Assembly: GCF_001307765.1 (NCBI RefSeq)
Contig: NZ_LKBA01000006.1
Location: forward strand, 124,001-188,000
Direction of reading: 5' to 3'
Origin: Aliiroseovarius crassostreae
GTDB lineage: Bacteria > Pseudomonadota > Alphaproteobacteria > Rhodobacterales > Rhodobacteraceae
DNA length: 64,000 nucleotides
Below the pieces are notes generated by a model. The model was not told the DNA's origin. It did not search any database and saw only the letters and a list, made by a program, of their open reading frames with translations. Below, piece by piece: positions 24,225-53,478 of the stretch. The position numbers were made by a program, and so were the translations under genes. The first letter of the stretch is position 1; every line of letters begins with the position of its first letter.

Positions 24225-24422
24225 ATGAAACTCTTCAACCTGATCAACCGCTTCAAAGCTGACGAAGATGGCGCCGTGACCGTGGACTGGGTCGTTCTGA
24301 CCGCTGCTATCGTGGGCCTCGGCGTGGCCGTGCTGACTTCGGTCTCCGCCAGCACCGACGCACTGGCCACCAAAGTGTCGAACAAAATCAACACCATGAG
24401 CGTCAAGCTCCTGACCAAGTAA
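24225..24422 (+). CDS. flp: Flp-type pilin, copy 1
   Basis: Major pilin precursor of the Tad pilus (65 residues). The basic leader MKLFNLINRFKADEDG is followed by AVTVDWVVLTAAIVGLGVAV. Cleavage is expected after the Gly, leaving Asp (family position usually Glu) at +5 of a hydrophobic assembly helix. It is shorter at the C-terminus than many type IV pilins, as usual for Flp. This copy has its own strong RBS, unlike copies 2 and 3, and carries Ala in SVSAST where the others have Ser. Confidence 0.92.
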   Translation: MKLFNLINRFKADEDGAVTVDWVVLTAAIVGLGVAVLTSVSASTDALATKVSNKINTMSVKLLTK

Positions 24423-24490
24423 TCTCTGGATTTCGGGCCTGAGGACCTCCAACGGCCCCTTCCAAAACTCTCGTATCAAGGATTATCGCA

Positions 24491-24688
24491 ATGAAACTCT
24501 TCAACCTGATCAACCGCTTCAAAGCTGACGAAGATGGCGCCGTGACCGTGGACTGGGTCGTTCTGACCGCTGCTATCGTGGGCCTCGGCGTGGCCGTGCT
24601 GACTTCGGTCTCCTCCAGCACCGACGCACTGGCCACCAAAGTGTCGAACAAAATCAACACCATGAGCGTCAAGCTCCTGACCAAGTAA
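24491..24688 (+). CDS. flp: Flp-type pilin, copy 2
   Basis: Same 65-residue prepilin as copy 1, with the G/AVTVDW processing site, differing only by Ser for Ala in SVSSST. It is preceded by CAAGGATTATCGCA, a weaker RBS than that of copy 1, so translation levels may differ. It lies in the middle of the tandem array. Confidence 0.92.
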   Translation: MKLFNLINRFKADEDGAVTVDWVVLTAAIVGLGVAVLTSVSSSTDALATKVSNKINTMSVKLLTK

Positions 24689-24756
24689 TCTCTGGATTTC
24701 GGGCCTAAGGACCTCCAACGGCCCCTTCCAAAACTCTCGTATCAAGGATTATCGCA

Positions 24757-24954
24757 ATGAAACTCTTCAACCTGATCAACCGCTTCAAAGCTGACGAAGA
24801 TGGCGCCGTGACCGTGGACTGGGTCGTTCTGACCGCTGCTATCGTGGGCCTCGGCGTGGCCGTGCTGACTTCGGTCTCCTCCAGCACCGACGCACTGGCC
24901 ACCAAAGTGTCGAGCAAAATCAACACCATGAGCGTCAAGCTCCTGACCAAGTAA
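24757..24954 (+). CDS. flp: Flp-type pilin, copy 3
   Basis: Third 65-residue prepilin, with Ser for Asn in KVSSKINTMS and otherwise equal to copy 2. It ends the array and is followed by a hairpin terminator before cpaB, so the pilins may be expressed apart from the assembly genes. The leader and TVDW processing site are intact. Confidence 0.92.
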   Translation: MKLFNLINRFKADEDGAVTVDWVVLTAAIVGLGVAVLTSVSSSTDALATKVSSKINTMSVKLLTK

Positions 24955-24991
24955 TGGTCGCTCTGGCACAGCCAGATGTGAAATTTGGATC

Positions 24992-26190: not shown

Positions 26191-26310
26191 GAAAGCGTTT
26201 CGGGATAAACTTGACACACATGCTTATTCCGAAACGCTCACAACAATGAGATCTCTTACTGCGTTTCGCCTTTTCCCTGTCTCAGGCTAAAGCCGAAACG
26301 CTTTAATGAT
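26191..26310 (+). repeat. Two-hairpin dispersed element, copy A
   Basis: Begins GAAAGCGTTTCGG and ends CCGAAACGCTTTAATGAT. Hairpin 1: GCGTTTCGGGATAA pairs with TTATTCCGAAACGC (one G-T). Hairpin 2: GCGTTTCG...CGAAACGC with a partly paired interior. The outermost arms (AAAGCGTTTCGG and CCGAAACGCTTT) are also perfectly complementary, so a single large cruciform is an alternative fold. Tip complementarity is weak here (GACA at 26213, TGTC at 26278). Confidence 0.75.
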
Positions 26311-26490
26311 TCTTGCAAAAAAACAAAAACTGTCGCATGCTCGCAGACAAGTGGGCGAAATACACCGGACCAACCGGACCTTCAGCCGCGAACGGAACCG
26401 TGTAACAGCATGAGATTTCGTTCTACAGGCAACGCGGATTGAAGATAAGCAAAGCCCGAAACCGAGGCGTGATCGAAAAGGCAGGATCAC
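26311..26490. other. cpaC leader region
   Basis: 180 bases without a gene between repeat copy A and cpaC. It should contain the cpaC promoter; I see no clear motif. The cpaC RBS is AGGCAGGATCAC. Confidence 0.35.
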
Positions 26491-27906
26491 ATGAAAATTG
26501 ATAAATGGATGAAAGCGGCCCTTTTGGGAGCCGCAATCGGATTTACAAGCATTCCCACAGGTGCTTCTGCGGAAACTCTGAGGGTCATGAAAGGGGCTGC
26601 CTCTTCGGCACTGAACGTCCCGATGAACCGTGCGGTGGTTGTGGAAAGCGAGGTGCCCTTCGCTGAGCTCTCAATCGCAAACCCCGGCATCGCTGATTTT
26701 TCGACCCTGTCGGATCGCACCATTTACGTGCTTGGCAAGGCGCCTGGTCGCACCACCTTGACCCTTCTGGGCGGCGACGGTCGCCTGATCACCAATGTCG
26801 AGATCCACGTGGCCCCCGATATCGCCGAATTCAAGGAGCGCCTGCGTCAGATCCTGCCCGGCGAGCCGATTGAAGTGCGAACTGCCAATGACGGGATTGT
26901 CCTGTCCGGCACGGTCAGCTCGATCGGGCGCATGGACCGCGCCCTGGATCTTGCCAGCCGTTATGCACCGGACCGGGTCTCCAACCTGATGACCGTTGGC
27001 GGCACCCAGCAGGTGATGCTGAAAGTCCGCTTTGCCGAAATGCAGCGTTCCGTGCGCAAGGCCCTGTCCGGGTCGCTTGCCATCAAAGGCGGCACCAACC
27101 TGGGTGTAGTCAGCGAAACTGGCACCTGGCTGGATGGGGCCAATGATCTGGGCAATTCCACGATCACCCCCAGCAGCGGCACCGAGGGCGCCTTTGCCCT
27201 TGGCTTCAACGCGGGTGCCTTTGAAATTGGTATTCTTCTGGAAGCCCTTGAAAGCAAAGGTGTTGTCCGCACCCTGTCCGAACCGAACCTGACCGCACTC
27301 TCCGGGCAGGAAGCCAGTTTCCTGGCGGGTGGGGAATATCCGGTGCCTGTGGCCAACGGCGACAATGGCATCTCGATCGACTATAAACCGTTCGGCATTG
27401 AGATGACCTTTACCCCGCGCGTTCTGGCCGATGACGTGATCAATCTGGATCTTAAGGCCGCAGTGTCCGGTCTGGACAGCACGGTGAGCTTCAACAATGG
27501 CGGCTTCAACGTGAACGCCTTCCGCCGCCGCGAAACCTCCACCGTGGTTGAACTGCGCGATGGTGAAAGCTTTGCCATTGCCGGCCTGATCGAAGATGAT
27601 TTCCGCGACCTGTCGGGACAGGTGCCCTGGCTGGGCGATATTCCGGTGCTTGGATCGCTGTTCCGCTCGGCCGAATATGAACGCCGCCAGTCTGAACTTG
27701 TGGTCATCATCACCGCCCATCTGGTCACCCCCACACGGGGCGACGCGCTGGCACTGCCAACCGACCGGATCAAACCCCCGTCCGAGCAAGAGCTGTTCCT
27801 CTTTGGCAAAACCGCCTCCCCGAATCGTCCCACCAAAGGGGCTGCGGGAGAAGTGGCAAAACAGGATTTCTCCGGCTCCTACGGCTATGTGATGGAGGAC
27901 AATTGA
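26491..27906 (+). CDS. cpaC: Tad pilus secretin CpaC/RcpA
   Basis: Outer-membrane channel for the Flp pilus. 471 residues: signal peptide (residues 1-27, ending GASAET), an N-terminal pilus-assembly domain (~30-105), a BON-like stretch (IEVRTANDGIVLSGTVSSIGRMDRAL), and the secretin domain (~240-410) with LSEPNLTALSGQEASFLAGGEYPVP, the diagnostic VPWLGDIPVLGSLFRS and ELVVIITAHLV. The gene for an OmpA-type lipoprotein follows three bases after the stop. Confidence 0.94.
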   Translation: MKIDKWMKAALLGAAIGFTSIPTGASAETLRVMKGAASSALNVPMNRAVVVESEVPFAELSIANPGIADFSTLSDRTIYVLGKAPGRTTLTLLGGDGRLITNVEIHVAPDIAEFKERLRQILPGEPIEVRTANDGIVLSGTVSSIGRMDRALDLASRYAPDRVSNLMTVGGTQQVMLKVRFAEMQRSVRKALSGSLAIKGGTNLGVVSETGTWLDGANDLGNSTITPSSGTEGAFALGFNAGAFEIGILLEALESKGVVRTLSEPNLTALSGQEASFLAGGEYPVPVANGDNGISIDYKPFGIEMTFTPRVLADDVINLDLKAAVSGLDSTVSFNNGGFNVNAFRRRETSTVVELRDGESFAIAGLIEDDFRDLSGQVPWLGDIPVLGSLFRSAEYERRQSELVVIITAHLVTPTRGDALALPTDRIKPPSEQELFLFGKTASPNRPTKGAAGEVAKQDFSGSYGYVMEDN

Positions 27907-27909
27907 TCC

Positions 27910-28575
27910 ATGAAAACCGTGATGATCAAACCCCTTCTGGCCACAACCGCCCTGCTGACCCTGCTGGGGGCCTGTGGGGACGGACAGCGTGGCGTGTTTT
28001 TCGGTGAAGCCGGGTCTTTCCTGAATGAAGGCTATTTCGGCTCCGCGACCGTGCACAATACCGGCGTTCAGAATGGCGATATCCAGTATGTGATTGGCAT
28101 GGCCAACCGCTTTGCTCAGGAAGTGCCCGATACCGTGAACTTTGCCTTCAACAGCGCCCAGCTTGATCAGCAGGCCCTGGCAATCATTGCCCGTCAGGCC
28201 GACTGGATCAAACAATTCCCCGAAGTCCGGTTCCGCGTCTTCGGATATACCGACAAGGTCGGATCCGAGGCCTATAACAAACGTCTGGGGATGCGCCGCG
28301 CCAATACCGTGGTCAACGCCCTTGTTGCCCATGGCATCAGCCGCTCACGTCTGGAAGCGGTGGTCAGCTATGGCGAAACCAAACCTCTGATCGACGTGCC
28401 AGGCCGCGAACGGGCCAACCGCCGTGCCCTGACCGAAGTGTCGGGCTTTGTCGGCCGCCATCCCACGGTGATGAACGGAAAATACGCCGAAATCATCTTC
28501 CGCGAATATGTTCAGAGCGCCTATAGCGAACCGGCCCTGACACGCGCGGGGCTGGATGGCAGCGCCACACAATAA
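27910..28575 (+). CDS. OmpA-family lipoprotein in the tad locus
   Basis: 221-residue lipoprotein: signal MKTVMIKPLLATTALLTLLGAC with the lipobox Cys at residue 22. The OmpA-type peptidoglycan-binding domain (~75-180) shows VNFAFNSAQLDQQALAIIARQADWI, RFRVFGYTDKVGSEAYNKRLGMRRA and ERANRRALTEV. It occupies the place usually held by CpaD/RcpB and probably tethers the secretin to the wall. It is translationally close to cpaC and ends before a strong terminator. Confidence 0.88.
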   Translation: MKTVMIKPLLATTALLTLLGACGDGQRGVFFGEAGSFLNEGYFGSATVHNTGVQNGDIQYVIGMANRFAQEVPDTVNFAFNSAQLDQQALAIIARQADWIKQFPEVRFRVFGYTDKVGSEAYNKRLGMRRANTVVNALVAHGISRSRLEAVVSYGETKPLIDVPGRERANRRALTEVSGFVGRHPTVMNGKYAEIIFREYVQSAYSEPALTRAGLDGSATQ

Positions 28576-28597
28576 ACGCATCACTTTTGTGATCAGG

Positions 28598-28627
28598 AAA
28601 GGGCGCGGTGCAAACCGCGCCCTTTTT
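28598..28627 (+). terminator. Terminator after the OmpA-type lipoprotein gene
   Basis: AAAGGGCGCGG, loop TGCAAA, CCGCGCCCTTTTTGG: a strong rho-independent terminator closing the cpaC-lipoprotein unit. Confidence 0.88.
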
Positions 28628-28633
28628 GGTCCT

Positions 28634-28749
28634 AAAGTGTTTCGACTTATTATTGAGACACAATAATGAGGCGAAACGCTCGAAACCTACTGATGTTGCG
28701 GGCGTTTCGAAATCAACTTGTGTCTCAAGTTCATCTCGAAACGCTTTAA
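28634..28749 (+). repeat. Two-hairpin dispersed element, copy B
   Basis: Starts AAAGTGTTTCG, ends CGAAACGCTTTAA. Hairpin 1: ATTATTG/CAATAAT tip stem on GTGTTTCG/CGAAACGC. Hairpin 2: AACTTG/CAAGTT tip stem on GCGTTTCGA/TCGAAACGC. The two tips, TTGAGACACAA (28653-28663) and TTGTGTCTCAA (28718-28728), are exact reverse complements over 11 bases. Each 48-base half aligns with the complement of the other. It lies directly after a terminator. Confidence 0.8.
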
Positions 28750-29173
28750 CCGTCCGGGTTAGCCCGTGACAAACCCTGCCCCCGCCCTCCGGCAACATGG
28801 ACATTTCCTGTCACGTTTCGGGTTTCCCCTGCCCCTGTTAGACGTCAAACCCCGTCCGAAGGGTCGAAAACAGTTGACGGGCCCTGCAGCCCCAAAAGCC
28901 TTCAGACAACACATTGAAACCTTGGGGAATTTTCAGAAAATCACCCAATTTTCTCTTGTTACTGAATTCGAAACAGCCCGACACAAGCGCGCTGATCGTC
29001 CTGAAATGACGAATAATTACGATCTTTTGGCCCCAATCTTGCCCCTTTTGCCTGCCACAACTTCTGAGAATTGGAGCAGTGCGCACTCAATACGAGTCGC
29101 GCGTGATCCGGATGATTATCCGACAGGCCCGCAAGAGGCTGTGCATCCGGGGTGAATGAGAAGGAATGAACGC
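28750..29173. other. Region upstream of cpaE
   Basis: About 420 bases with no supported gene, including an AT-richer part (28920-29040). It probably holds the promoter for the cpaE-tadV operon. No operator was recognised. The cpaE RBS is GAAGGA. Confidence 0.4.
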
Positions 29174-30415
29174 ATGAGTGGGAACGTAGCGATACAAGCG
29201 GACGCCGCGCCGATCGTCGCCTGCACGATTTCGAGGGATGTGCAGAATTTCGACCTGCTGATTGAAGATATGGAAACCGAGCTGGGCGAAGCCTGGGGAG
29301 ACCTCTCCATTGACGACGCCGTGGCCTTTTTCGGCCAGCCCGAAGCGGACACGCTGGAGTTTGTGGCACTTGCCATTGATGATGGCGACGAGGAGAACCT
29401 GGCAAAGGTGGCCCACACGGTGAAATCGGCCGTGGAAAAAGGTATCAAGGTTGTTGTGATCGCAGAGGAGGTCAGCCCGATCGCCCTGCACCAGCTCCTG
29501 AAGCTTGGGGCAGCCGAATTTGTCCCCTACCCGCTTCCCGAAGGGTCCTTGCATGACGTGATCGAACGGCTGCGCCGTCCGCCCCCCGCAATGCCTGCCC
29601 CCGGTGATGCAACCGCCGCAGTGAAGCCCAAGGGCGACCGGGATGGTGTGCTGTTTGCCGTGCATGGCCTGGCCGGCGGCACCGGGGCCACAACGCTTGC
29701 CACCAATCTGGCATGGGAACTGACACAGGTGGACAAGGACCGCGCGCCCCAGGTCTGCCTGCTGGATCTTGACCTGCAATTCGGATCGGTCTCGACCTTT
29801 CTGGACCTGCCCCGCCGCGACGCCGTATACGAGCTTTTGTCCGACACGGAGGCCATGGACCGCGACAGTTTCATGCAGGCGCTTTTGAGCTATCAGGACA
29901 ACCTCAAGGTTCTGACCGCCCCAAATGACATTCTGCCGCTGGATCTGATCGCGAACGAAGATGTGGAGCGGCTGATTGAAATGGCGCGCTACAATTTCGA
30001 TTACGTGGTGATCGACATGCCGTCGACGGTGGTTCAATGGACCGAAACCGTGCTGCAGGAGGCGGAAGTCTATTTCACCACGCTCGAACTGGACATGCGC
30101 TCGGCGCAGAATGCGCTGCGTATGATCAAGGCGCTGAAATCCGAAGACCTGCCGGTTGCCAAATTGCGCCATGTGCTGAACAGGGCACCGAAATTCACCG
30201 ATCTCTCCGGCAAATCCCGGGTCAAGCGACTGGCGGAAAGCCTTGATATTTCGATCGAACTTCAGATGCCTGACGGGTTGAAACCGGTGGCACAGGCCGG
30301 CGATCACGGTGTGCCACTGGCTGATGCTGCCCCGAAAAACGCGTTGCGCAGGGAGATCCAGAAACTGGCCAAATCGCTGCATGAAATCAACCTCAGCGAA
30401 GCCGTCGCACATTAA
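29174..30415 (+). CDS. cpaE: Tad pilus localisation ATPase CpaE/TadZ
   Basis: MinD/ParA-like protein that places the Tad machine in the cell. 413 residues: a receiver-like N-terminal domain (~15-140) and an AAA_31-type domain starting GVLFAVHGLAGGTGATTLATNLAWEL, a deviant Walker A (GGTGATT) with LLDLDLQFGSVSTFLDL as the next motif and DYVVIDMPSTVV as Walker B. The ATG at 29174 (MSGNVAIQ) is best placed behind GAAGGA. It is followed by cpaF after 12 bases. Confidence 0.92.
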   Translation: MSGNVAIQADAAPIVACTISRDVQNFDLLIEDMETELGEAWGDLSIDDAVAFFGQPEADTLEFVALAIDDGDEENLAKVAHTVKSAVEKGIKVVVIAEEVSPIALHQLLKLGAAEFVPYPLPEGSLHDVIERLRRPPPAMPAPGDATAAVKPKGDRDGVLFAVHGLAGGTGATTLATNLAWELTQVDKDRAPQVCLLDLDLQFGSVSTFLDLPRRDAVYELLSDTEAMDRDSFMQALLSYQDNLKVLTAPNDILPLDLIANEDVERLIEMARYNFDYVVIDMPSTVVQWTETVLQEAEVYFTTLELDMRSAQNALRMIKALKSEDLPVAKLRHVLNRAPKFTDLSGKSRVKRLAESLDISIELQMPDGLKPVAQAGDHGVPLADAAPKNALRREIQKLAKSLHEINLSEAVAH

Positions 30416-30427
30416 TCGGAGGTCAGG

Positions 30428-31885
30428 ATGTTTTCCCGTTACAAAAAACAGAACCCGCGCCCATCCCAACCACAGGGGACCCCCAATCTTCAGGCGCTGG
30501 CCGGGGGGAAAAATGGCGCCCCTGCTGCGACTGCACCGGAAAAACCCCGCGTGCAGCGCCGCCCGACCGAACAGAAGGTCGCAGCCCGCACAGCACCGCT
30601 GGACAAGGAACGCAAACGCAAGGAACGCCTGTCCGAGCTTAAGGTCGAACTGCACAAAGAGCTTCTGGACAGTCTGAACCTTTCGGCTCTGGAATCCGCC
30701 TCCGAAAAAGAACTGCGCGAAGAAATCACCGCGATCACATCGGAATTCCTGCAAGACAAGGCCGTGGTTCTGAACCGTGACGAACGGATGAGCCTGAACC
30801 AGGAGCTTTATGACGAGGTGACCGGGCTTGGCCCGCTGGAAACCCTGCTGAAAGATGACAGTATCAACGATATTCTGGTCAATGGACCGCAGCAGATTTT
30901 CGTGGAACGTGCCGGCAAGCTGGAACTGACCGACATCACCTTCAAAGATGAGCGGCACCTGATGCGGATCATCGACAAGATCGTATCTGCGGTGGGGCGT
31001 CGTGTGGACGAGTCAAACCCCCATGTGGACGCCCGTCTGGCGGACGGGTCGCGCTTCAACGCCATGGTGCCACCGATTGCGGTGGATGGCTCGCTCGTGT
31101 CGATCCGGAAATTCAAAAAGGACAAGCTGGGCATTGACGAGTTGGTGAATTTCGGGGCGTTTTCGGAAGAGATGGCCGCCTATCTTCAGGCCGCCGTGGC
31201 CTGCCGCCTGAACATCATCGTGTCCGGCGGGACCGGCTCTGGTAAGACCACAACCCTCAACGCGCTGTCTTCGTTCATCGACAACTCGGAACGGATCCTG
31301 ACGATTGAGGATACGGCGGAACTTCAGCTGCAACAGACCCATGTGGGCCGGATGGAAAGCCGCCCGGCCAATGTCGAGGGCAAGGGGGCGGTGAGCCAGC
31401 GCGACTGTCTGAAAAACGCCCTGCGGATGCGCCCGGACCGGATCATCGTGGGGGAAACCCGCGGTGAAGAGGTGATCGACATGTTGCAGGCCATGAACAC
31501 CGGCCATGACGGATCCATGACCACAATCCACGCCAACTCGGCCCGGGACGGGATTTCGCGCCTTGAAAACATGGTGGCGATGGCCGGGATCGAAATGCCG
31601 CTGAAAGCGGTGCGCTCACAGATCGCGTCCGCTGTGCATCTGATTGTGCAGGCCTCACGGCTGCAGGACGGGTCGCGCCGCATGGTCTCGATCACCGAAA
31701 TCACCGGCATGGAAGGGGAAGTGATCTCGATGCAGGAGGTGTTCCGTTATGAGCGCCTCGGCCTTGAACCCGATGGCAAGATCATCGGCCGCTTCAACGC
31801 CACCGGCGTGCGGTCACATTTCTCGGACCGTTTCCGCCAGTGGGGCTATGACCTGCCCTCAACCATTTTCGAACCGATCATCTAA
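30428..31885 (+). CDS. cpaF: Tad pilus assembly ATPase CpaF/TadA
   Basis: Hexameric secretion ATPase powering Flp assembly. 485 residues: a basic, Pro-rich N-terminus (1-65), an N-terminal domain, then the catalytic core with Walker [22 protein letters not shown] (~residue 265), the Asp box [12 protein letters not shown], Walker [20 protein letters not shown], and the His box [16 protein letters not shown]. The RBS GGAGGT precedes the ATG. tadB begins 11 bases after the stop. Confidence 0.95.
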
Positions 31886-31896
31886 CGGAGGATCCC

Positions 31897-32865
31897 ATGT
31901 CCATTTCACCAGAACTTCTGATATATGGCCTGATCTTCGGCGCGGTGATCTTGCTGGTCGAAAGTATCTATCTGGCGGTTTTTGGCAAATCCATCAGCCT
32001 GAACAGCCGGGTGAACCGCCGCCTTGACCTGCTTGACAAGGGCGCACGGCGCGAAGAGGTGCTGGAACAGCTGCGCAAGGAAATGACCCAGCACATGAGG
32101 GCCAGGGGCTTTCCGCTGTTTTCAATCCTCGCGCTGAAGGCCCAGAAAGCGGCCATTGCCTTTTCGCCGTCACAACTGATCATGGTGATGGGTGCCCTGT
32201 CCGCGATGGCCTTTGTCGGTCTGACCGTGGGCACCGAGGCCGCCCCGGCCGTGCGTCTGGTCGTGTCGATTGCGATGGGGGTTGGTGGCGTCTATCTCTG
32301 GGTCGACCAGAAAGCCAAGAAACGCATGTCGATGCTGGAAGAACAACTGCCCGATGCGGTCGAGCTGATGGTGCGTTCCTTGCGCGTCGGCCACCCGTTC
32401 ACATCGGCCATCCAGATCGTCGCCAAGGAAGTGCCCGACCCGCTGGGCACCGAGATCGGGATGATCGCGGATGAAAGCTCTTATGGGCGCGATGTGGGTG
32501 AAAGCCTCAAGGCCATGGCAGAACGCCTCGACATGCAGGATTTGCGCTTCCTCGCGGTGGCCGTGTCGATCCAGCAGCAATCAGGCGGCAACCTGGCCGA
32601 GATCCTGGACGGTCTGGCCAAGGTGATCCGTTCGCGGTTCAAACTGTTTCGCCGGGTCAAAGCCATCACCGCAGAAAGCAAATGGTCAGGCATGTTCCTG
32701 TCCGGTTTCCCGATCGTGGCCCTGATCATGCTGCAGGTGATCCAGCCGAATTATTATGACGAGGTGAAAGAGACCGTCTATTTCATCCCCGCCGCGCTGA
32801 TCGTGGCTGCGTTCCTCGTCGCCAATATCTTCGTGATGAAGATGCTTGTGAACATCAAGGTATAA
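31897..32865 (+). CDS. tadB: Tad pilus inner-membrane platform protein TadB
   Basis: One of two GspF-like platform proteins. 322 residues: N-terminal membrane segment, two central helices (~90-145), and the T2SSF domain LPDAVELMVRSLRVGHPFTSAIQ through SGGNLAEILDGLAKVIRSRFKLFRRVKAITAESKWSG, then two C-terminal membrane helices. It probably pairs with TadC under CpaF. Preceded by CGGAGGATCCC; tadC starts four bases after the stop. Confidence 0.93.
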   Translation: MSISPELLIYGLIFGAVILLVESIYLAVFGKSISLNSRVNRRLDLLDKGARREEVLEQLRKEMTQHMRARGFPLFSILALKAQKAAIAFSPSQLIMVMGALSAMAFVGLTVGTEAAPAVRLVVSIAMGVGGVYLWVDQKAKKRMSMLEEQLPDAVELMVRSLRVGHPFTSAIQIVAKEVPDPLGTEIGMIADESSYGRDVGESLKAMAERLDMQDLRFLAVAVSIQQQSGGNLAEILDGLAKVIRSRFKLFRRVKAITAESKWSGMFLSGFPIVALIMLQVIQPNYYDEVKETVYFIPAALIVAAFLVANIFVMKMLVNIKV

Positions 32866-32869
32866 GCCC

Positions 32870-33844
32870 ATGGACCTTCTGAACCAAATCCTGATCGACA
32901 AGCTTGGCCCGATGGGACCGCTGATGGCGGTGGGCGGACTTGGCTTTGTGCTGATGCTGGTCGCCGTGCCGATCCTGTTTCAAAAAAAGGAAGACCCGCT
33001 CGACAAGCTGCGCAAAGGTCAGCGCAACCTCCCGCAAAATGACCGAAAGGCCCTTCGGGTGCAGGGGGGCAATGACAAGCTCGAGAAATATTCGGCCTTC
33101 CTCGAACCGCAGAACGAAGAGGAATATTCGGCCATCCAGCTGCGCCTGTTGCAGGCCGGCTATTCCGGGAAAGACGCTGTGCGCACCTATCACTTTGCGC
33201 AGTTTGCCCTGGGGATTGGCCTGCTGCTGTTCGGCGTTCTGATCGTGTTCCTGAAATCCCAAAACCCGACGATCCAGCTCAGCTCAACCGCCAAGGTCTT
33301 GTGGATCCTGGGCCCCGGTATCGCGGGGTATATGCTGCCCAAATACTGGATCACCCGCCGGGTGGAGGCTCGCAAGGAAGAGATCACCAATGGCTTTCCC
33401 GACGCCCTGGACATGATGCTTGTCTGCGTCGAGGCTGGCCAGTCGCTTGATCAGTCCATCATCCGCGTGTCGCAGGAAATTCGCGCAGGCTACCCCTCAT
33501 TGGCGGACGAGTTCGAGATTGTCAGCTATGAGGTCAAGGCCGGTAAAGACCGCGTGCAGGTTCTGCGCGACATGTCGGAACGATGCGGCGTTCAGGACGT
33601 GGGAAGCTTTGTGACCGTGCTGATCCAATCTGCCACGTTCGGCACCTCGATCGCCGAAGCCCTGCGTGTCTTTTCTGCCGAAATGCGGGACAAACGCGTG
33701 ATGCGGGCCGAAGAAAAGGCAAATACCTTGCCCACCAAGATGACACTTGCCACAATGATGCTGACCGTGCCGCCCCTGCTGATCATTCTGCTTGGGCCGT
33801 CGGTTTACAGTATCGCCCAGACCCTTCAGAACACCGGGTTCTGA
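32870..33844 (+). CDS. tadC: Tad pilus inner-membrane platform protein TadC
   Basis: 324 residues, second GspF-like platform protein: N-terminal membrane helix, paired helices at ~105-160, and the T2SSF domain GFPDALDMMLVCVEAGQSLDQSI, FVTVLIQSATFGTSIAEALRVFSAEMRDKRVMRAEEKA, ending in a hydrophobic TMMLTVPPLLIILLGPSVYSI. No separate strong RBS is seen, in line with coupling to tadB. Confidence 0.93.
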   Translation: MDLLNQILIDKLGPMGPLMAVGGLGFVLMLVAVPILFQKKEDPLDKLRKGQRNLPQNDRKALRVQGGNDKLEKYSAFLEPQNEEEYSAIQLRLLQAGYSGKDAVRTYHFAQFALGIGLLLFGVLIVFLKSQNPTIQLSSTAKVLWILGPGIAGYMLPKYWITRRVEARKEEITNGFPDALDMMLVCVEAGQSLDQSIIRVSQEIRAGYPSLADEFEIVSYEVKAGKDRVQVLRDMSERCGVQDVGSFVTVLIQSATFGTSIAEALRVFSAEMRDKRVMRAEEKANTLPTKMTLATMMLTVPPLLIILLGPSVYSIAQTLQNTGF

Positions 33845-33877
33845 TCCCAGCGGTCTGGTGCCCGCAAGGAGTTCAGG

Positions 33878-34453
33878 GTGACCCGTTTCCACCCCTTCAT
33901 CGTGATCCTGCCCCTGATGGCCGCACTTGTCGGCTGTCAGGGGTCTTCACTTGGCACCACCCGTACCGACGACAATCCCTATGCCCCGAGCGGCCTGAAA
34001 CGGGGGGAGGCAAGCGTGGATGGCCTGCTGGTCGGGCACCGGCTGATGGCTGCGGAAGAATATGAACTCGCCCTCAAGGCCTATCTGCGGTCGGCGGCGG
34101 ATCATGGGCTGACCGTCGATGTGCTCTCTGCGGTCGGCTCAGCCAACCTCAAGCTTGGTCGCCTGGGACAGGCAGAAACCCTGCTGCGCCAGGCTGTCAA
34201 AAAGGACGAAAACTTTGTCCCGGCCTGGAACAACCTGGGCGTGGTGCTGATGGAAAAAGGCGAAATCCCCGAAGCCGCACGTATATTCCGCATCGCTTTC
34301 GGGCTGGATAGTGGCCAATCTGCCGATATTCGCGAGAATTTGCGTCTGGCCCTCGCCAGATTGAAAAACCCGGATTATGATCCGGTTAATGAAAACAACT
34401 TCGCGCTGATGCGTCGGGGGCAAGGGAACTATCTTCTGCTGTCGACGCTCTAG
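33878..34453 (+). CDS. tadD: TPR lipoprotein, TadD-like (first copy)
   Basis: 191 residues, GTG start behind AAGGAGTTCAGG. Lipoprotein signal with lipobox LVGC (Cys ~20) and tetratricopeptide-like repeats (LLVGHRLMAAEEYELALKAYLRSA; VLSAVGSANLKLGRLGQAETLLRQA; PAWNNLGVVLMEKGEIPEAARIF). TadD-type lipoproteins assist secretin assembly. A second TPR lipoprotein follows, so which is functionally TadD is uncertain. Confidence 0.85.
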   Translation: MTRFHPFIVILPLMAALVGCQGSSLGTTRTDDNPYAPSGLKRGEASVDGLLVGHRLMAAEEYELALKAYLRSAADHGLTVDVLSAVGSANLKLGRLGQAETLLRQAVKKDENFVPAWNNLGVVLMEKGEIPEAARIFRIAFGLDSGQSADIRENLRLALARLKNPDYDPVNENNFALMRRGQGNYLLLSTL

Positions 34454-34503
34454 AGTTCATAAGGGCCATGCGCGAGTGAAATTGAGCAGCAGAGGACGCA
34501 GAC

Positions 34504-35367
34504 ATGCGCCATTCTATCCTTATGACCTTGTGTCTGGGCAGCGCCCTTGCGCTGACCGCCTGTCAGAAACCCGGCACCTCGGAAGATGTGGAACGGGCGC
34601 TGGCCGATGTGAATGTCATCGACGAAAACAACCTCAATGACATCATGCTGACCGTGGGCGACCCCGAAGAGGCCGTGGCCTACTTTCTGCGCGCCACCAA
34701 AGGCCAACCCAAACGGGTTGACCTGCAGCGCGGGCTGGCCAAATCACTGATCCGTGCCAAACAACCCGCCCGTGCGGTCGCAGCATGGGAAACCGTGATG
34801 TCCCTGCCCGGGGCCACCGATGAAGATCGTGTCGGGCTGGCCGATGCGCTGATCCGCTCTGGCAATTGGGGACGCGCCGAGATTGAGCTCGACAAGGTGC
34901 CCCCCACATTCGAGACCTATAAACGCTATCGGCTTGAGGCCATGGTCGCTGACAGCAAGAAGGAATGGAAAAAGGCCGACAGTTTCTATGAAACCGCCGT
35001 GGGTCTGTCGACCAAACCTTCCTCGGTCCTGAACAACTGGGGCTATTCGAAACTGACCCGTGCCGATTACAAAGGCGCCGAGAAACTGTTTGCCGAGGCC
35101 CTGAGTTTTGACCCCACCCTGTTCACGGCCAAGAACAATCTTGTTCTGGCCCGGGGGGCGCAGCGCAAATATGACCTGCCGATCCTGAAAACCACCCAGG
35201 CCGAGCGGGCGCAGCTGTTGCACACGCTGGCGCTGTCAGCGATCAAACAGGGGGATATCACCATCGGCAAGGGGCTTTTGGAAGACGCAATCAACACCCA
35301 CCCGCAGTATTTCGAGGCCGCCGTGCGGGCGTTGGAAGCACTGGAAAACAACGTCTCCAATGGCTGA
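34504..35367 (+). CDS. TPR lipoprotein, TadD-like (second copy)
   Basis: 287 residues: lipoprotein signal MRHSILMTLCLGSALALTAC (Cys 20), then about five TPR units (EEAVAYFLRATKGQPKRVDLQRGLAKSLIRAKQPARAVAAWETV; SVLNNWGYSKLTRADYKGAEKLFAEALSFDP). RBS GAGGACGCAGAC. Related in design but not close in sequence to the preceding TPR lipoprotein. The last eight bases overlap the prepilin peptidase gene. Confidence 0.85.
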   Translation: MRHSILMTLCLGSALALTACQKPGTSEDVERALADVNVIDENNLNDIMLTVGDPEEAVAYFLRATKGQPKRVDLQRGLAKSLIRAKQPARAVAAWETVMSLPGATDEDRVGLADALIRSGNWGRAEIELDKVPPTFETYKRYRLEAMVADSKKEWKKADSFYETAVGLSTKPSSVLNNWGYSKLTRADYKGAEKLFAEALSFDPTLFTAKNNLVLARGAQRKYDLPILKTTQAERAQLLHTLALSAIKQGDITIGKGLLEDAINTHPQYFEAAVRALEALENNVSNG

Positions 35368-35869
35368 CCTGACCATGGCGCAAGGCGCCAGCGCCGCCCT
35401 GTGGTTCTTGCCCTTCGCGGCACCGATCTGCGTCTGGGCGGCGGTAAGTGATCTGAAGCGGATGAAAATCCCCAACAAGGCTGTCATCGCCTTGTTGGCG
35501 GTCTATGCGGTGGTTGGTCTGATCGCCCTGCCGCTTGAGGACTATGCCTGGCGTTACCTGCATCTTCTGGTGGTTCTGGTTCTGGGCTTTGTGTTCAATC
35601 TTGCCGGCGCATTTGGCGCAGGGGATGCCAAATTTGCCGCCGCAATGGCGCCGTTCATCGCCCTGCCGGACATTGCCGATTTCCTGTTCCTGTTCAGCGC
35701 CACGCTGCTGGTGGGCTTTGCCCTGCACCGTCTGGCCCGAGCAATCCCGGCGGTGCGTCGCAAAACACCCGATTGGGAAAGCTGGCAGCGCAAGGATTTT
35801 CCGATGGGATTATGCCTGGGGGCCAGCCTGACCCTTCACCTCGCCCTCAGCGCCTCAACCGGGATGTGA
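35360..35869 (+). CDS. tadV: Prepilin peptidase (TadV/CpaA, A24 family)
   Basis: 169-residue aspartic membrane peptidase that removes the leader of Flp. Catalytic Asp residues are in AAVSDLKRMKIPN (~residue 31) and the GxGD-type motif GAFGAGDAKFAAAMAPF (~residue 88). It has about five membrane helices and no N-methylase domain, as normal for TadV. It overlaps the upstream TPR gene and ends the tad transcript at a clear terminator. Confidence 0.92.
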   Translation: MADLTMAQGASAALWFLPFAAPICVWAAVSDLKRMKIPNKAVIALLAVYAVVGLIALPLEDYAWRYLHLLVVLVLGFVFNLAGAFGAGDAKFAAAMAPFIALPDIADFLFLFSATLLVGFALHRLARAIPAVRRKTPDWESWQRKDFPMGLCLGASLTLHLALSASTGM

Positions 35870-35902
35870 CCCCAATCTGGACCATGAAAATATGGGCCCC
35901 GA

Positions 35903-35930
35903 AAACCCGCCGTGATCCGGCGGGTTTTTT
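35903..35930. terminator. Terminator between tadV and the convergent membrane protein
   Basis: AAAACCCGCCG, loop TGAT, CGGCGGGTTTTTT. The A-tract on the opposite strand lets it serve the convergent gene as well. Confidence 0.88.
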
Positions 35931-35937
35931 ATGTATT

Positions 35938-37581
35938 TCAATTCTTTAAATCTGGAAGCTGATAAAGAACATAGTCCCCCGTACGGCGAAGTTCCGTCAC
36001 ATCCTGCACCCATTCCGTCTCGCTGATTTCTTCCAGAACCAGCTTGCGCAATTCCCCTGACTGGGGGCAGCTCGGCACAAGCAGCAGATCCGCGTTTTCA
36101 ATCCCCGTCAGCCCGCCATAATACCACGGCGCCCCGCGCTGCAGCGGCTCTCCGGCCCCGAACAACCAATAGCTGGCAAGGATATCCGCGACAAAAATGG
36201 ACTTGCCCTGCACCAGGCCCGCCGCGTTCAGATCATCCGCCACCCCCCGGAACCACGCCATCATGCCGCTTTCCAGCACGCAGGAGGGGAACTCTTCGCC
36301 TTTGAACACCAGCTTTTCATCCTCACGGTCCTTGGCCAGATAGGACGCCGCAAAAATGGTATCCGGCCCGTCAAATGGCCGGGAGACATTGATCAGGTTG
36401 GCCCGCACCCGTCTGGCCTGCAGATCCTCGCTTTGGGCCACATCCGGCAGGAACGGCACGAAATCCTCCACATCCGTCATCAGGTGGCGAAACGGGCTTT
36501 GCGCGATATTGAGAAATGACGGCGTGGCCAGCACAAAGGCGCAGCTTGCCGCAATCACCATTCCCCGGCCAAGGTCCCAGCCAAGCCCGTTGGTCACCGG
36601 TTGCGCCGGCAGAAGAGAGATCAGCAAAAGCCCGACAAGTCCGATCCATTGCGGATCATTTCCATAATTCTGATAGGTCACATAGACAAAGCCCGGCAGA
36701 AGCAAAAGAAGCACCAGCCCCTCACGCATCCGCCCGGCCTGACGTAGCAAGATCACCGCCACCAGCGCAAGCGCCGTGCCGGGCAGGTAGGCAGGGGCAC
36801 TGATCACCTTGCCCAGCGGCAGGCCCGGGGAGGAGCGGAACTCACTGCCCGCAACATTCAGAAGATCGGCAAGATAAAGCAGCCAGTAAACCGGAGTGCC
36901 CGCGTAAAGCGTGATCAGCCCAACACCAACAAGCCCCATAACCAGCGCCCACAGGACGGTCCGCCCCGCCCCACGGGTCAGCAGCGCCACCAGAACCGGT
37001 GGGGAAAAGGCCGCGAAATAGGTGACCTTGATCATCGCCATGACCACGAAAGCCGCGCCAATCAGAATGCCATCCAGCACCGGGCTGTCGGCAAAGCGAC
37101 TGGGCAGAAGCGCGGTCAGGATCGCCACAAAAGCCGCCACCCAGGCCCACCGGTTGTAATGCATCGACACGGAGAGAAGCTGGTCTGCCTCGCCATGGAT
37201 CAACCCAAGGCACAGCACGATCATCGCAATGGCAAAGACATGGCGCCAGATCCCCGCCAGTCGCGTCATCGACACCCACCAGATGGCCGGCAGGAACGCC
37301 GCCCCGACCAGCACCTGACCATAGAGAAAACTGTGACCAAAGCCGATGCCCATCTTGGAAAACAGCACAATCGGCAGAAATGCCATCGCCCCGATCGGGG
37401 TCACGAAATCCAGATGCGGCACCTGCCCTGCGCTCATCCGTGTCAGGATCTGCAACAGATGCAGCGTATCCCCTTCATGCTGCCCGACAAAAAGCCCCCC
37501 CTTTGCCAGTAACACCCCGGAAAAAAGGGCAAAAAATGCGATCTGCACCGCCGCCAAAATGATGCCTTTTTCTTTGCTCAT
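35938..37581 (-). CDS. Polytopic membrane protein, unknown
   Basis: 547 residues with about 11-12 hydrophobic segments up to residue ~400 and a soluble C-terminal part (~400-547). Layout (early loop with DTLHLLQILTRMSAGQVPHLDFVTP, many helices, C-terminal domain) recalls GT-C glycosyltransferases, but no DxD/ExD catalytic motif is secure; HLDFVTP could be one. Start at 37581 (MSKEKG) behind AGGGCAGGC; the frame to 37950 runs through the promoter of the neighbour and is rejected. It is divergent from an AAA ATPase gene. A role in surface polysaccharide is only a guess. Confidence 0.7.
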   Translation of the reverse strand: MSKEKGIILAAVQIAFFALFSGVLLAKGGLFVGQHEGDTLHLLQILTRMSAGQVPHLDFVTPIGAMAFLPIVLFSKMGIGFGHSFLYGQVLVGAAFLPAIWWVSMTRLAGIWRHVFAIAMIVLCLGLIHGEADQLLSVSMHYNRWAWVAAFVAILTALLPSRFADSPVLDGILIGAAFVVMAMIKVTYFAAFSPPVLVALLTRGAGRTVLWALVMGLVGVGLITLYAGTPVYWLLYLADLLNVAGSEFRSSPGLPLGKVISAPAYLPGTALALVAVILLRQAGRMREGLVLLLLLPGFVYVTYQNYGNDPQWIGLVGLLLISLLPAQPVTNGLGWDLGRGMVIAASCAFVLATPSFLNIAQSPFRHLMTDVEDFVPFLPDVAQSEDLQARRVRANLINVSRPFDGPDTIFAASYLAKDREDEKLVFKGEEFPSCVLESGMMAWFRGVADDLNAAGLVQGKSIFVADILASYWLFGAGEPLQRGAPWYYGGLTGIENADLLLVPSCPQSGELRKLVLEEISETEWVQDVTELRRTGDYVLYQLPDLKN

Positions 37582-37707
37582 GCCTGCCCTCTTTCCCCTG
37601 TACCAAATGATGAAGCGCCCTTTATCGGGCGTGTGTTCATTGTGATTTTGGCCTTGTTTCTGGCGGAAAAGAGCAAGAATCGCAAGATTTGGGTGAGGAT
37701 GACAGGC

Positions 37708-39021
37708 ATGAATATTCACGCAAACGAAATGATTGCACCCCCTCCTCTGCGCAGGCTGGAGGAGACCGGGCTGACCATGGTGATGATGCGGGACGTCCTG
37801 CTCAAGACCATGTTCCGCACCAACCTGGAACGCGTCAGCGACCTGGAACGCACCCTCGCCCTGCCCGGCCGCGTGGTGCAGGAACTGATTGATATCTGCC
37901 GCGAGCAATCGCTGATCCAGGCCATGGGCACGATGCATGCCGGTGCGCAAAGCTCGGAAATGGGGTATCGCCTGTCCGATGCCGGCAAGGCGCGGGCGCT
38001 GGATGCGCTGGCCCAGTCGGAATATTACGGCGCCATGCCGGTGCCGATGGAGGTCTATGCCCAGCAGATGAAACGCCAGTCGATCCGCAACATCCAGATG
38101 ACCCGCGAACAGCTGACCTCAGCCATGGGGCACCTGATCCTGCCGCCCAACCTGCTGGACCAGCTTGGCCCCGCAGTGGGCTCAGGCCGTTCGATCCTGA
38201 TGTATGGCCCGCCGGGCAACGGGAAGTCCTCGATTTCCAACGGGATCCGCGACGCCCTTGGTGACAAGATCTATGTGCCGCGCGCGATTGTCTATTCGGG
38301 GCAGATCATCACCGTCTACGATCCGATTGTGCATGCCGCGGCCGAAGATCACCTGGATGACCCCAACAGCCTGCGGCGCTCCTCCTCGAAATTTGATCGC
38401 CGCTATGTGCTGTGCGACCGGCCGACCGTGATCACCGGGGGGGAACTCACCCTCGACATGCTGGATCTGAAATACAACCCCACCGCGCGCACCTATACCG
38501 CACCTTTGCAATTGAAGTCCTCAGGCGGCGTGTTCATCGTCGACGACCTTGGCCGCCAGTCCGAACCACCGCAGGCGCTGATCAACCGTTGGATTGTGCC
38601 GCTTGAAGAGAACAAGGATATTCTGGCCCTGCAATCGGGTGAGAAGTTCGAGGTGCCGTTTGACACGCTGGTCATTTTCTCGACCAACTTCCACCCGAAC
38701 GAAATCTTCGACAAGGCGGCCCTGCGGCGGATCTTTTACAAGATCATCATCGACGGGCCGGACCAGGAAGGGTTCCTGAAAATCTTTGCGCTTGTGGCGC
38801 GCAAGAAAAAGATGCCGCTGAACGAAGAGGCACTGGTCTATCTGCTGCGGGAAAAATACCCGACCATCGACAATGTCTATGCCAATTATCAGCCGGTTTT
38901 CCTGATCGACCAGATGATTTCGATCTGTGAATTCGAGGGCATCCCCTACCAGATGTCCCCGGAACTGATCGACCGCGCCTGGGAAAACATGTTCGTCAGC
39001 GACCGCGAGATCATTCACTAA
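37708..39021 (+). CDS. AAA-family ATPase, unknown role
   Basis: 437 residues. The N-terminal ~125 residues look like a winged-helix or adaptor part (TGLTMVMMRDVLLKTMFRTN; LPGRVVQELIDICREQSLIQ). The ATPase domain has Walker A LMYGPPGNGKSSISN (~residue 170), Walker B GVFIVDDLGRQSEPPQALINRW, sensor-1 VIFSTNFHP and an arginine-finger candidate AALRRIFYKI. The gene follows the tad locus after one divergent gene and is often found near tad genes in relatives, but I cannot name the substrate. The ATG at 37708 sits nine bases after GAGG; an earlier ATG at 37699 has no spacing. Confidence 0.8.
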   Translation: MNIHANEMIAPPPLRRLEETGLTMVMMRDVLLKTMFRTNLERVSDLERTLALPGRVVQELIDICREQSLIQAMGTMHAGAQSSEMGYRLSDAGKARALDALAQSEYYGAMPVPMEVYAQQMKRQSIRNIQMTREQLTSAMGHLILPPNLLDQLGPAVGSGRSILMYGPPGNGKSSISNGIRDALGDKIYVPRAIVYSGQIITVYDPIVHAAAEDHLDDPNSLRRSSSKFDRRYVLCDRPTVITGGELTLDMLDLKYNPTARTYTAPLQLKSSGGVFIVDDLGRQSEPPQALINRWIVPLEENKDILALQSGEKFEVPFDTLVIFSTNFHPNEIFDKAALRRIFYKIIIDGPDQEGFLKIFALVARKKKMPLNEEALVYLLREKYPTIDNVYANYQPVFLIDQMISICEFEGIPYQMSPELIDRAWENMFVSDREIIH

Positions 39022-39037
39022 GCGAATGACGATTAAC

Positions 39038-39075
39038 CGGGCGGGCACTGCATGTCAGATCCCGCCCGATTTTTA
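39038..39075 (+). terminator. Terminator after the AAA ATPase gene
   Basis: CGGGCGGG (39038-39045), 15-base loop, CCCGCCCG (39061-39068), then ATTTTTAT. Confidence 0.82.
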
Positions 39076-39110
39076 TGCCGGTCAGGGACGGAACCGGCGA
39101 ATTCTGAGAT

Positions 39111-39230
39111 GAAAGCGTTCCGCCCAAAACCTGAAATGCTGATTTGTGGCGGATCGCGCGAAACGCTCGTATGTTGCGCTACGCCCCGCCTTATCCCTGC
39201 TTCAGGTATAAGGCGGGGCGCTTTAATGAT
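39111..39230 (+). repeat. Two-hairpin dispersed element, copy C
   Basis: Starts GAAAGCGTTCCG and ends GGCGCTTTAATGAT like copy A. Hairpin 2 is a perfect 12-bp stem, GCCCCGCCTTAT/ATAAGGCGGGGC. Hairpin 1 has CCGCC/GGCGG with mismatches above. Tips ACCTGAA (39129-39135) and TTCAGGT (39201-39207) are exact complements, although different in sequence from those of copy B. Its last eight bases supply the stop codon and last residues of the convergent DUF4405 gene. Confidence 0.78.
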
Positions 39231-53288: not shown

Positions 53289-53416
53289 CTAGTTTTCTAG
53301 TTTTCTAGTTTTCTAGTTTTCTAGTTTTCTAGTTTTCTAGTTTTCTAGTTTTCTAGTTTTCTAGTTTTCTAGTTTTCTAGTTTTCTAGTTTTCTAGTTTT
53401 CTAGTTTTCTAGTTTT
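53289..53416. repeat. Sixteen tandem CTAGTTTT units
   Basis: An exact array of 16 copies of the 8-base unit CTAGTTTT (128 bases), without sequence variation, in the 224-base gap between pal and cpoB. Flanks carry short complementary GAAAAC/GTTTTC pieces. CTAG is usually rare in bacterial DNA. Copy number is expected to vary by slippage and could set promoter spacing for cpoB. Confidence 0.97.
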
Positions 53417-53478
53417 CTCAGAAAACCAAAGCTCTCTCCCGGCCAATGTCAAGATGCAGACACCAACCGGGGCTTCCC

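Follow-up and report, generated by a model that had tools for sequence, protein, structure and literature searches.

Three copies in the window

The window (the whole stretch of 64,000 nucleotides of Aliiroseovarius crassostreae DNA that was analysed) contains three copies of a two-hairpin element on the + strand, at 26192-26304 (copy A), 28634-28747 (copy B), and 39112-39225 (copy C), which is where an earlier note on this DNA had placed them. The two-hairpin makeup that it described also holds: copies A and B consist of paired hairpin sequences of 41-43 nt separated by a linker of 23 or 22 nt, and copy C is a diverged member. Copy A (delimited as 26193-26303, +) belongs to class I and has a 43-nt hairpin (26195-26237, +, tip CTTGACACACATG), a 23-nt linker (26238-26260, +), and a 41-nt hairpin (26261-26301, +, tip CCTGTCTCAGG), with the core AAGCG..CGCTT. 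It is followed by TA at 26304-26305, and the dinucleotide on its left is GA instead of TA. Copy B (28635-28746, +) belongs to class II, with two 43-nt hairpins (28637-28679, + and 28702-28744, +) around a 22-nt linker (28680-28701, +), and is flanked by TA on both sides (28633-28634 and 28747-28748). Copy C (39113-39223, +) reads AAAGCGTTCCG..GGGGCGCTTTA and has TA on its right (39224-39225) and GA on its left; the tip of its second hairpin (39182-39220, +) includes TTCAGGT. As first reported, the tips of the two hairpins are exact complements in copy B (TTGAGACACAA and TTGTGTCTCAA, respectively) and in copy C (ACCTGAA and TTCAGGT).

All three copies fold better than dinucleotide shuffles of themselves (z of −7.1, −9.3, and −5.4 on the + strand for A, B, and C; 0 of 200 shuffles were as good). 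The minimum-energy fold of copy A is two hairpins. For copy B, on both strands, it is a single long end-to-end hairpin, not two, in which hairpins 1 and 2 pair with each other. The gaps that correspond to those of copies A and B in three congeners contain no such element.

A dispersed family and its insertion sites

The two-hairpin element is a dispersed repeat family without genes of its own, found across several marine genera of the Roseobacter group. A search with the hairpin pattern gave 127 matches in the source genome (with a few mutual overlaps) and none in a reversed control, so the resemblance among the three copies is not due to chance, and the expectation of more copies in the genome is confirmed. 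Copy B by itself has 40 matches in the genome, its own place among them, that span 101-131 bases and are 91-100% identical; scoring covered 40 of the 159 candidates, and the scored class II copies have 91-98% identity to copy B. Among 21 genomes of the genus, the source genome has by far the highest copy number. Relatives occur in congeners and in further Roseobacter-group genera, and there are many copies in Roseovarius OFTM168. Our counts for other genomes (tips, GANTC, and strand bias) start from 80 of 97 loci, less 11 of the 80 that were dropped by eye as unrelated (Burkholderia, Bifidobacterium, and others). For comparison with rhizobial repeats, we searched 250 kb of pSymB and obtained four loose double-hairpin candidates, but no clear case of the same kind, and copy B had no match in phages. 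The family appears to be undescribed so far and to have been moving recently; among the matches listed in the openly licensed literature, which was the scope of our search, no description of it was found.

The unit is about 112 bp long and consists of two inverted halves, each with a hairpin of 40-45 nt, around a linker of 22-23 nt. Its sequence, AAGCGTTTCG...CGAAACGCTT, has the terminal inverted repeats of a miniature inverted-repeat element (MITE) at both ends, and a TA stands on either side of it. Of 151 elements, 108 are flanked by TA left and right, and in the other 43 it is absent from one or both ends. (In this count, the GCGTTTCG arms were part of the search pattern, and the outer AA/TT and the TA were outside of it.) In each half, the foot and arm (TAAA-GCGTTTCG) are conserved, and the upper stem is variable yet base-paired. 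Seen from the outer end, the tip core TGRNNCAC runs in the same direction in both halves, and TGNNNCAC is found in the outer orientation in 54 of the 65 43-nt halves of the source genome (4 of the 54 carry both orientations). Solo copies of 43 nt, located at C7:271029 and 322961, resemble deletions between tip TTG repeats.

Across 61 class I and class II copies, the element has a sharp boundary and a YTAR target. At putA, the whole query is present in two of eight plasmid records, and about 113 bases are missing from the other six. The four empty strains that we read (S128, S137, S202, and S212) have GAGCTAAA(C/G)CG with a single TA, and the filled strains have GAGCTA-AAGCG...CGCTT-TAAACGG with two. 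Thus, the comparison of empty and filled strains at putA reveals the target-site duplication of TA that is expected of a MITE. At a class II site, the element is present in five of eight plasmids and in the source genome, but the junction is different in each of the three empty strains, which limits clean TA duplication to putA, a nested copy, and one paralogous motif. The nested copy is a class I element within a hairpin of a class II element; TA flanks it left and right, and its right end carries one additional C. For one class II copy, the empty state is represented by a paralogous motif that has TTAA only once. Counting against the MITE reading, a partial match to the element overlaps a gene annotated as gspG in two plasmids. 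Overall, the element is mobile, inserts at YTAR, and varies among strains, and TA is duplicated at the site that was read both empty and filled. With halves that are inverted relatives and whose tip cores face the same way, this bears out the earlier description of a mobile palindrome with mirroring halves.

Folding, tip pairing, and genomic context

The stem pairs of the element covary, and mismatches that are read from the outer end are more often G.T than A.C (STATISTICALLY). In 28 hand-picked halves (25 from other genomes and 3 from the window), both sides were changed in 82 cells, versus 31.9 in shuffled data, and pairing was 90.2%, versus 76.0%. The number of pairs with both sides changed was within the shuffling range (10 versus 8.4; 63 of 500 shuffles). 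Across 265 halves, the ratio of G.T to A.C mismatches from the outer end was 290:152. After clustering at 70% identity it was 69:35 (sign test, p = 0.016); the excess is modest, and at 60% clustering it is not significant (p = 0.13). Given this reading from the outer end, the fold that is selected seems to involve one strand per half, which hints at selection for a strand-specific fold.

Complementary tips could instead point to a structured RNA whose two hairpins kiss through their loops. The folds are highly stable, the tips of copies B and C are complementary, and a complementary tip run of at least 7 bases is found in 23 of the 35 class II pairs of the source genome, whose linker is 22 nt long, versus 0 of the 30 others. 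However, the tips are no more complementary within pairs than when they are re-paired (5.59 versus 5.97 matches for class I and 10.55 versus 10.56 for class II). The same holds in other genomes for the longest tip run (3.76 versus 3.75, n = 86), and only 3 of those 86 pairs have a run of at least 7, so the complementarity that the earlier note stressed is not a general property of further copies. Also, because the two halves have their G.T bias on opposite strands, one transcript cannot favour both of them, and Rfam had no match for the element at the gathering threshold. We consider kissing loops scarcely credible. The complementary tips are more probably a by-product of having the same core in inverted orientation, and their complementarity in class II of the source genome is accounted for by the copying of one ancestor.

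The element might also be retained for an RNA or regulatory role near genes, as a stabiliser or processing site, with its hairpins selected after insertion. The first hairpin on any transcript would be the G.U-tolerant one, as judged from the strand bias, and ERIC and Correia elements have been reported to act on mRNA. To examine genomic context, we used 74 copies from the source genome, of which 12 were at locus edges, and we called genes by in-house ORF scoring. None of the 62 remaining copies is inside a called gene, which suits such a role. But these copies show no excess at gene 3' ends or in any single arrangement: 33 are in tandem, 18 in convergent, and 11 in divergent gaps, roughly as expected from how the intergenic bases are divided among such gaps. 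In the tandem gaps, the upstream stop is the nearer one in 19 of 33 cases. So the statement that each copy follows the end of a gene does not extend beyond the window's copies, and we rejected a preferred position at gene ends. Presence of the element also differs at the strain level, and overall a retained RNA or regulatory role is improbable.

Mobilization and known systems

We propose that the element is very probably a non-autonomous MITE of about 112 bp that is moved in trans. A transposase supplied in trans would recognise each end, perhaps partly via the folded hairpin, and would cut at TA. The best candidate is perhaps a transposase of the IS5/IS427 type. IS711 belongs to the IS5/IS427 group. 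We favour this type because IS711 of Brucella duplicates TA at a YTAR target (PMC2266754), with which the YTAR target and TA duplication of our element agree. Also, among the IS427-group elements listed for Paracoccus, 10 of 11 have 2-bp duplications (PMC3281130). No autonomous relative with matching ends was found in the sequences that we scanned, and no longer element with the same ends was seen by eye among the listed solo hairpins of 80 loci of named genomes (11 of them judged unrelated), 400 kb of contig C7, and 77 further loci. The IS5-like ends that could be read in the source genome (one set: one type, two copies) are GGGCGTAGAC and do not match AAGCGTTTCG; at four other IS5-like places no ends could be read. 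An IS200-type gene whose start lies some 15 nt outside a class I element, and a second IS200-type element within a class II linker, were read as IS200 insertions rather than as mobilisers.

The MITE could be of the IS630/Tc1-mariner type instead, which we consider possible but doubtful. IS630 elements generally duplicate TA, and the pneumococcal RUP element inserts at TA and is thought to be mobilised by IS630-Spn1. However, an IS630 model gave just 10 weak matches in the genome, none of them above the cut-off of 100 (the best had 75.7 bits), and YTAR is the published target of IS711.

The conservation of the hairpins counts against the MITE reading, as a transposase that acts purely on double-stranded DNA, of the DDE type, should need none. 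A speculative and rather improbable alternative is that the transposase recognises the ends in folded, single-stranded form (the foot TAAA plus a hairpin whose tip is strand-polar), as RAYT does with REP, yet duplicates TA by making its cuts in the two strands two bases apart. REP-type hairpin recognition would then be combined with DDE-type insertion in a hybrid that occurs across the Roseobacter group.

Finally, the element could be a REP/BIME or REPIN, that is, an inverted pair of palindromes mobilised by a RAYT (a Y1 tyrosine transposase) via single-stranded DNA. Like REPINs and BIMEs, it is an inverted doublet of palindromic units with foot-plus-hairpin halves, and it is extragenic and of high copy number; the polarity of its halves would be compatible with a folded single strand. 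The copy-richest of the 21 genus genomes contains Y1 genes, and a protein search with one of these found a match in only 1 of 20 congeners. In contrast to REPINs, the foot is TAAA, without GTAG or CGTC, TA is duplicated upon insertion, and no RAYT was found above the cut-off in any of the 21 genus genomes. Y1 matches were absent from 17 of 19 element-bearing genomes, including Roseovarius OFTM168 (some of these assemblies are incomplete). In the source genome, six of eight Y1 places were scanned and scored best as IS200/IS605, and none of the eight reached the RAYT cut-off. The linked RAYT that the earlier note suggested is therefore not supported, and we find a REP-type origin very improbable.

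The preferred reading, a MITE moved in trans, places the element beside several known systems. It shares a YTAR target and duplication of TA with IS711 of the IS427 group (IS5 family), but IS711 is an autonomous IS of 842 bp. ERIC, Correia/NEMIS, and RUP are TA-bounded MITEs of 107-155 bp with terminal TA and target duplication, and the TA-bounded elements other than CIR are described as end-to-end folds without arms and a linker (PMC2229807). In contrast, each end of our element can fold on itself, although the lowest-energy fold of copy B is also end to end. The CIR element of Caulobacter, which we compared by description, is also about 110 bp, with two long hairpin arms, a linker, and TA termini, and is intergenic and alphaproteobacterial, but it has a conserved GANTC in its terminal loop (PMC2229807 and PMC10969869). 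The tips of our element show no clear enrichment of GANTC over column shuffles (3 of 97 versus 2.6 in the source genome and 16 of 101 versus 12.2 in others).

The family occurs in an abundant marine group, and its copies could act as strain markers. The covariation within hairpins, together with the strand bias, raises the testable question of whether such ends work in the form of a folded single strand. The mechanism of CIR mobility has been called open (PMC2229807), and our element, with its CIR-like plan of two arms, adds a case in which both a target duplication and polymorphism among strains are seen.

The family and its spread

The earlier note had described three copies of a two-hairpin element in the window, and all three lie where it placed them (element bounds: A, 26193..26303; B, 28635..28746; and C, 39113..39223, all + strand). 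A and B consist of paired hairpin sequences of 41–43 nt with a linker of 23 nt or 22 nt, respectively, and C is a diverged copy of the family. The fold z-scores on the + strand are −7.1 (A), −9.3 (B), and −5.4 (C). The lowest-energy fold of A is two hairpins; that of B, on either strand, is a single long end-to-end hairpin.

Further genomic copies, which the earlier note had set as its test, are abundant: the pattern GCGTTTCG-N15-45-CGAAACGC has 127 matches, a few overlapping, in the 3.72-Mb source genome of A. crassostreae (0 for the reversed control). BLAST gave 40 matches of 101–131 bases at 91–100% identity with B (best 40 of 159 candidates, B included) and 40 mostly full-length matches at 79–100% identity with A (best 40 of 175 candidates, A included). 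The 63 full-length copies in this genome comprise 30 of class I (like A), 31 of class II (like B), and 2 others.

In a set of 41 genomes (the source plus 40), the pattern is present in 17: the source, 15 of 20 other Aliiroseovarius genomes (2–20 matches each), and one genome of another genus (one match). The reversed control matched once in each of three congeners. With the family sampled at one genome per genus, a stricter paired pattern matched 2 of 198 genomes. A scan of named genomes found at least 97 stretches with the element pattern; of the 80 among the matches listed, 11 were excluded by eye as unrelated, and most belong to Roseovarius, Aliiroseovarius, Pelagivirga, Celeribacter, Shimia, Yoonia, Maritimibacter, Lentibacter, and kin. 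In Roseovarius OFTM168, the pattern hits 20 times forward and 24 times in reverse, and many of these hits are identical across the matched stretch. All 19 genomes picked for holding the element have it in paired form with a TAAA terminus. A regular copy is also present on a contig labelled Planctomycetota (locus L187, JAQWJQ010000228.1), through either transfer or mis-binning.

Insertion at TA

The element is bounded by (C/T)TA-AAGCG...CGCTT-TA(A/G), and flank similarity vanishes just beyond. Among 151 distinct elements, TA is at both ends of 108, the left only of 19, the right only of 17, and neither end of 7. A pyrimidine precedes the left TA in 113 of 127 cases, and a purine follows the right TA in 114 of 125.

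Two of eight A. crassostreae plasmid records hold a complete class I copy following putA; in the other six, the alignment is 113 or 114 bases shorter. In four of these six empty sites (S128, S137, S202, and S212), the junction reads GAGCTAAA(C/G)CG. The filled site in two strains reads GAGCTA-AAGCG...CGCTT-TAAACGG, so one TA became two. Five of eight plasmids and the source genome carry a class II copy close to an arsenic gene cluster; three plasmids lack it, but their junctions at this site are not alike. (A plasmid of A. crassostreae S204 matches the source genome at 96.3% over 3112 bases, in line with that species.) One class I copy is nested within a hairpin of class II, where TA flanks it on each side and a single C is added. 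One class II copy interrupts a motif; uninterrupted, this motif carries a single TTAA elsewhere in the genome (one instance in 400 kb). Finally, gaps in three congeners that match those of A and B hold no such element. Together, these sites show that the element moves and that TA is duplicated, in keeping with the mobile palindrome first suggested.

Two solo 43-nt copies in the source genome (contig C7, 271029 and 322961) join the left half of hairpin 1 to the right half of its partner, hairpin 2, and look like products of deletion between TTG repeats at the tips. Aliiroseovarius genomes also carry a dispersed motif, CTTTTTTCTTGTNNNAAATATCC(T/C)CGCCG(A/G)AGGC (locus L059:1491-1530, with matches in L303, L304, L308, L310, and L318).

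No copy lies inside a gene among the 62 classed by our own ORF scoring (12 more were at locus edges): 33 are between tandem, 18 between convergent, and 11 between divergent genes, where intergenic bases divide 55:24:21%. In annotated plasmids, the gspG annotation covers a partial match in two records, and the final bases of putA extend into one copy. The genes around A and B match RcpC/CpaB, secretin, OmpA, and ParA-like families, and by these matches the surroundings resemble a tad/flp pilus cluster. Beside the pilus genes, a 266-bp unit starting ATGAAACTCTTCAACCTG occupies 24225-24955 in 2.7 repeats at 99% identity; our guess is a tandemly multiplied pilin gene. At 53289-53418, CTAGTTTT is repeated 16.2 times at 100% match, an array possibly variable in length.

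Tips and stems

From the outer end inward, each half begins with TAAA-GCGTTTCG, runs through a variable stem, the tip, and the other side of the stem, and closes with CGAAACGC. Within the tip, the core TGNNNCAC is in the outer-end orientation in 54 of 65 43-nt halves of the source genome (4 of the 54 readable in either direction) and in 33 of 74 halves from other genomes; none of these halves has it in the reverse orientation only.

The second reading of the earlier note was a kissing-loop fold under selection. The tips of B are indeed exact complements, and in the source genome, complementarity of at least 7 bases occurs in 23 of the 35 pairs whose linker is 22 nt and in none of the 30 others. 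Under selection for pairing, tips of the same element should outmatch randomly re-paired tips. They do not in class I (5.59 matches versus 5.97 re-paired), in class II (10.55 versus 10.56), or in 86 tip pairs from other genomes (longest run 3.76 versus 3.75, with 7 bases reached in 3), which argues against this reading. As class II copies are close relatives, their complementary tips represent one ancestral state copied many times.

The stems do covary. Across 28 halves picked by hand, pairing holds in 90.2% of cells (76.0% shuffled), and 82 cells have both sides changed (31.9 shuffled); neither value was reached in 500 shuffles, and shifting the pairing partner by one base abolishes the signal. 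The number of pairs with two-sided changes was not beyond shuffling (10 versus 8.4, 63/500), and eight arm pairs are uninformative, being set by the search pattern in most rows. Template-switch correction of palindromes could generate such covariation. As far as we can see, it would not yield a bias towards G.T: read outer to inner, the upper stems of 265 halves have 290 G.T and 152 A.C mismatches. Clustered (means of 20 random orders), the ratio is 190:118 at 90% identity (sign p 0.002), 115:69 at 80% (p 0.018), 69:35 at 70% (p 0.016; 64:29 with the source genome excluded, p 0.009), and a non-significant 32:17 at 60% (p 0.13); a smaller earlier set gave p 0.073 at 70% and p 1 at 50%. In an extruded cruciform both strands fold, so that no bias of this kind is predicted, and one transcript cannot favour both halves because their favoured strands are opposite. 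Folding of one strand per half should yield it, which is suggestive, not decisive.

Candidate mobiliser and known systems

The linked RAYT that the earlier note raised did not appear: none scored over the cut-off in 21 genus genomes. The source genome has eight Y1 matches, and the six scanned all score as IS200/IS605; Y1 matches are absent from 17 of 19 other element-bearing genomes. (An element of IS200/IS605 type is inserted in the linker of one class II copy, at locus L027:1832-1900.) None of 10 IS630 matches in the source genome is over the cut-off.

IS711 is a member of IS5/IS427. The element shares its target with IS711 of Brucella, for which a passage of PMC2266754 reports YTAR with TA duplicated, and in Paracoccus, 10 of 11 IS427-group elements listed in part of PMC3281130 have 2-bp duplications. 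By target only, IS5/IS427 would be a candidate mobiliser. An element on C7, flanked by TA dinucleotides, is ~30% similar to an IS5-type fragment (its plasmid relatives are annotated IS5 family). Its ends, GGGCGTAGAC, however, are unlike those of the two-hairpin element.

The inverted doublet is common to REPINs, as a passage of PMC3116915 describes them, but those are linked to a RAYT; likewise, part of PMC3733652 ties REPs to a GTAG foot, whereas our element ends in TAAA. In its anatomy (~110 bp, intergenic, TA ends, two arms joined by a linker), the element agrees with the description of CIR from Caulobacter and Brucella in a passage of PMC2229807; CIR has a conserved GANTC, which lacks clear enrichment in our element. 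We file the element as a TA-duplicating MITE with CIR-like anatomy, rather than as a CIR, a REP, or an RNA family.
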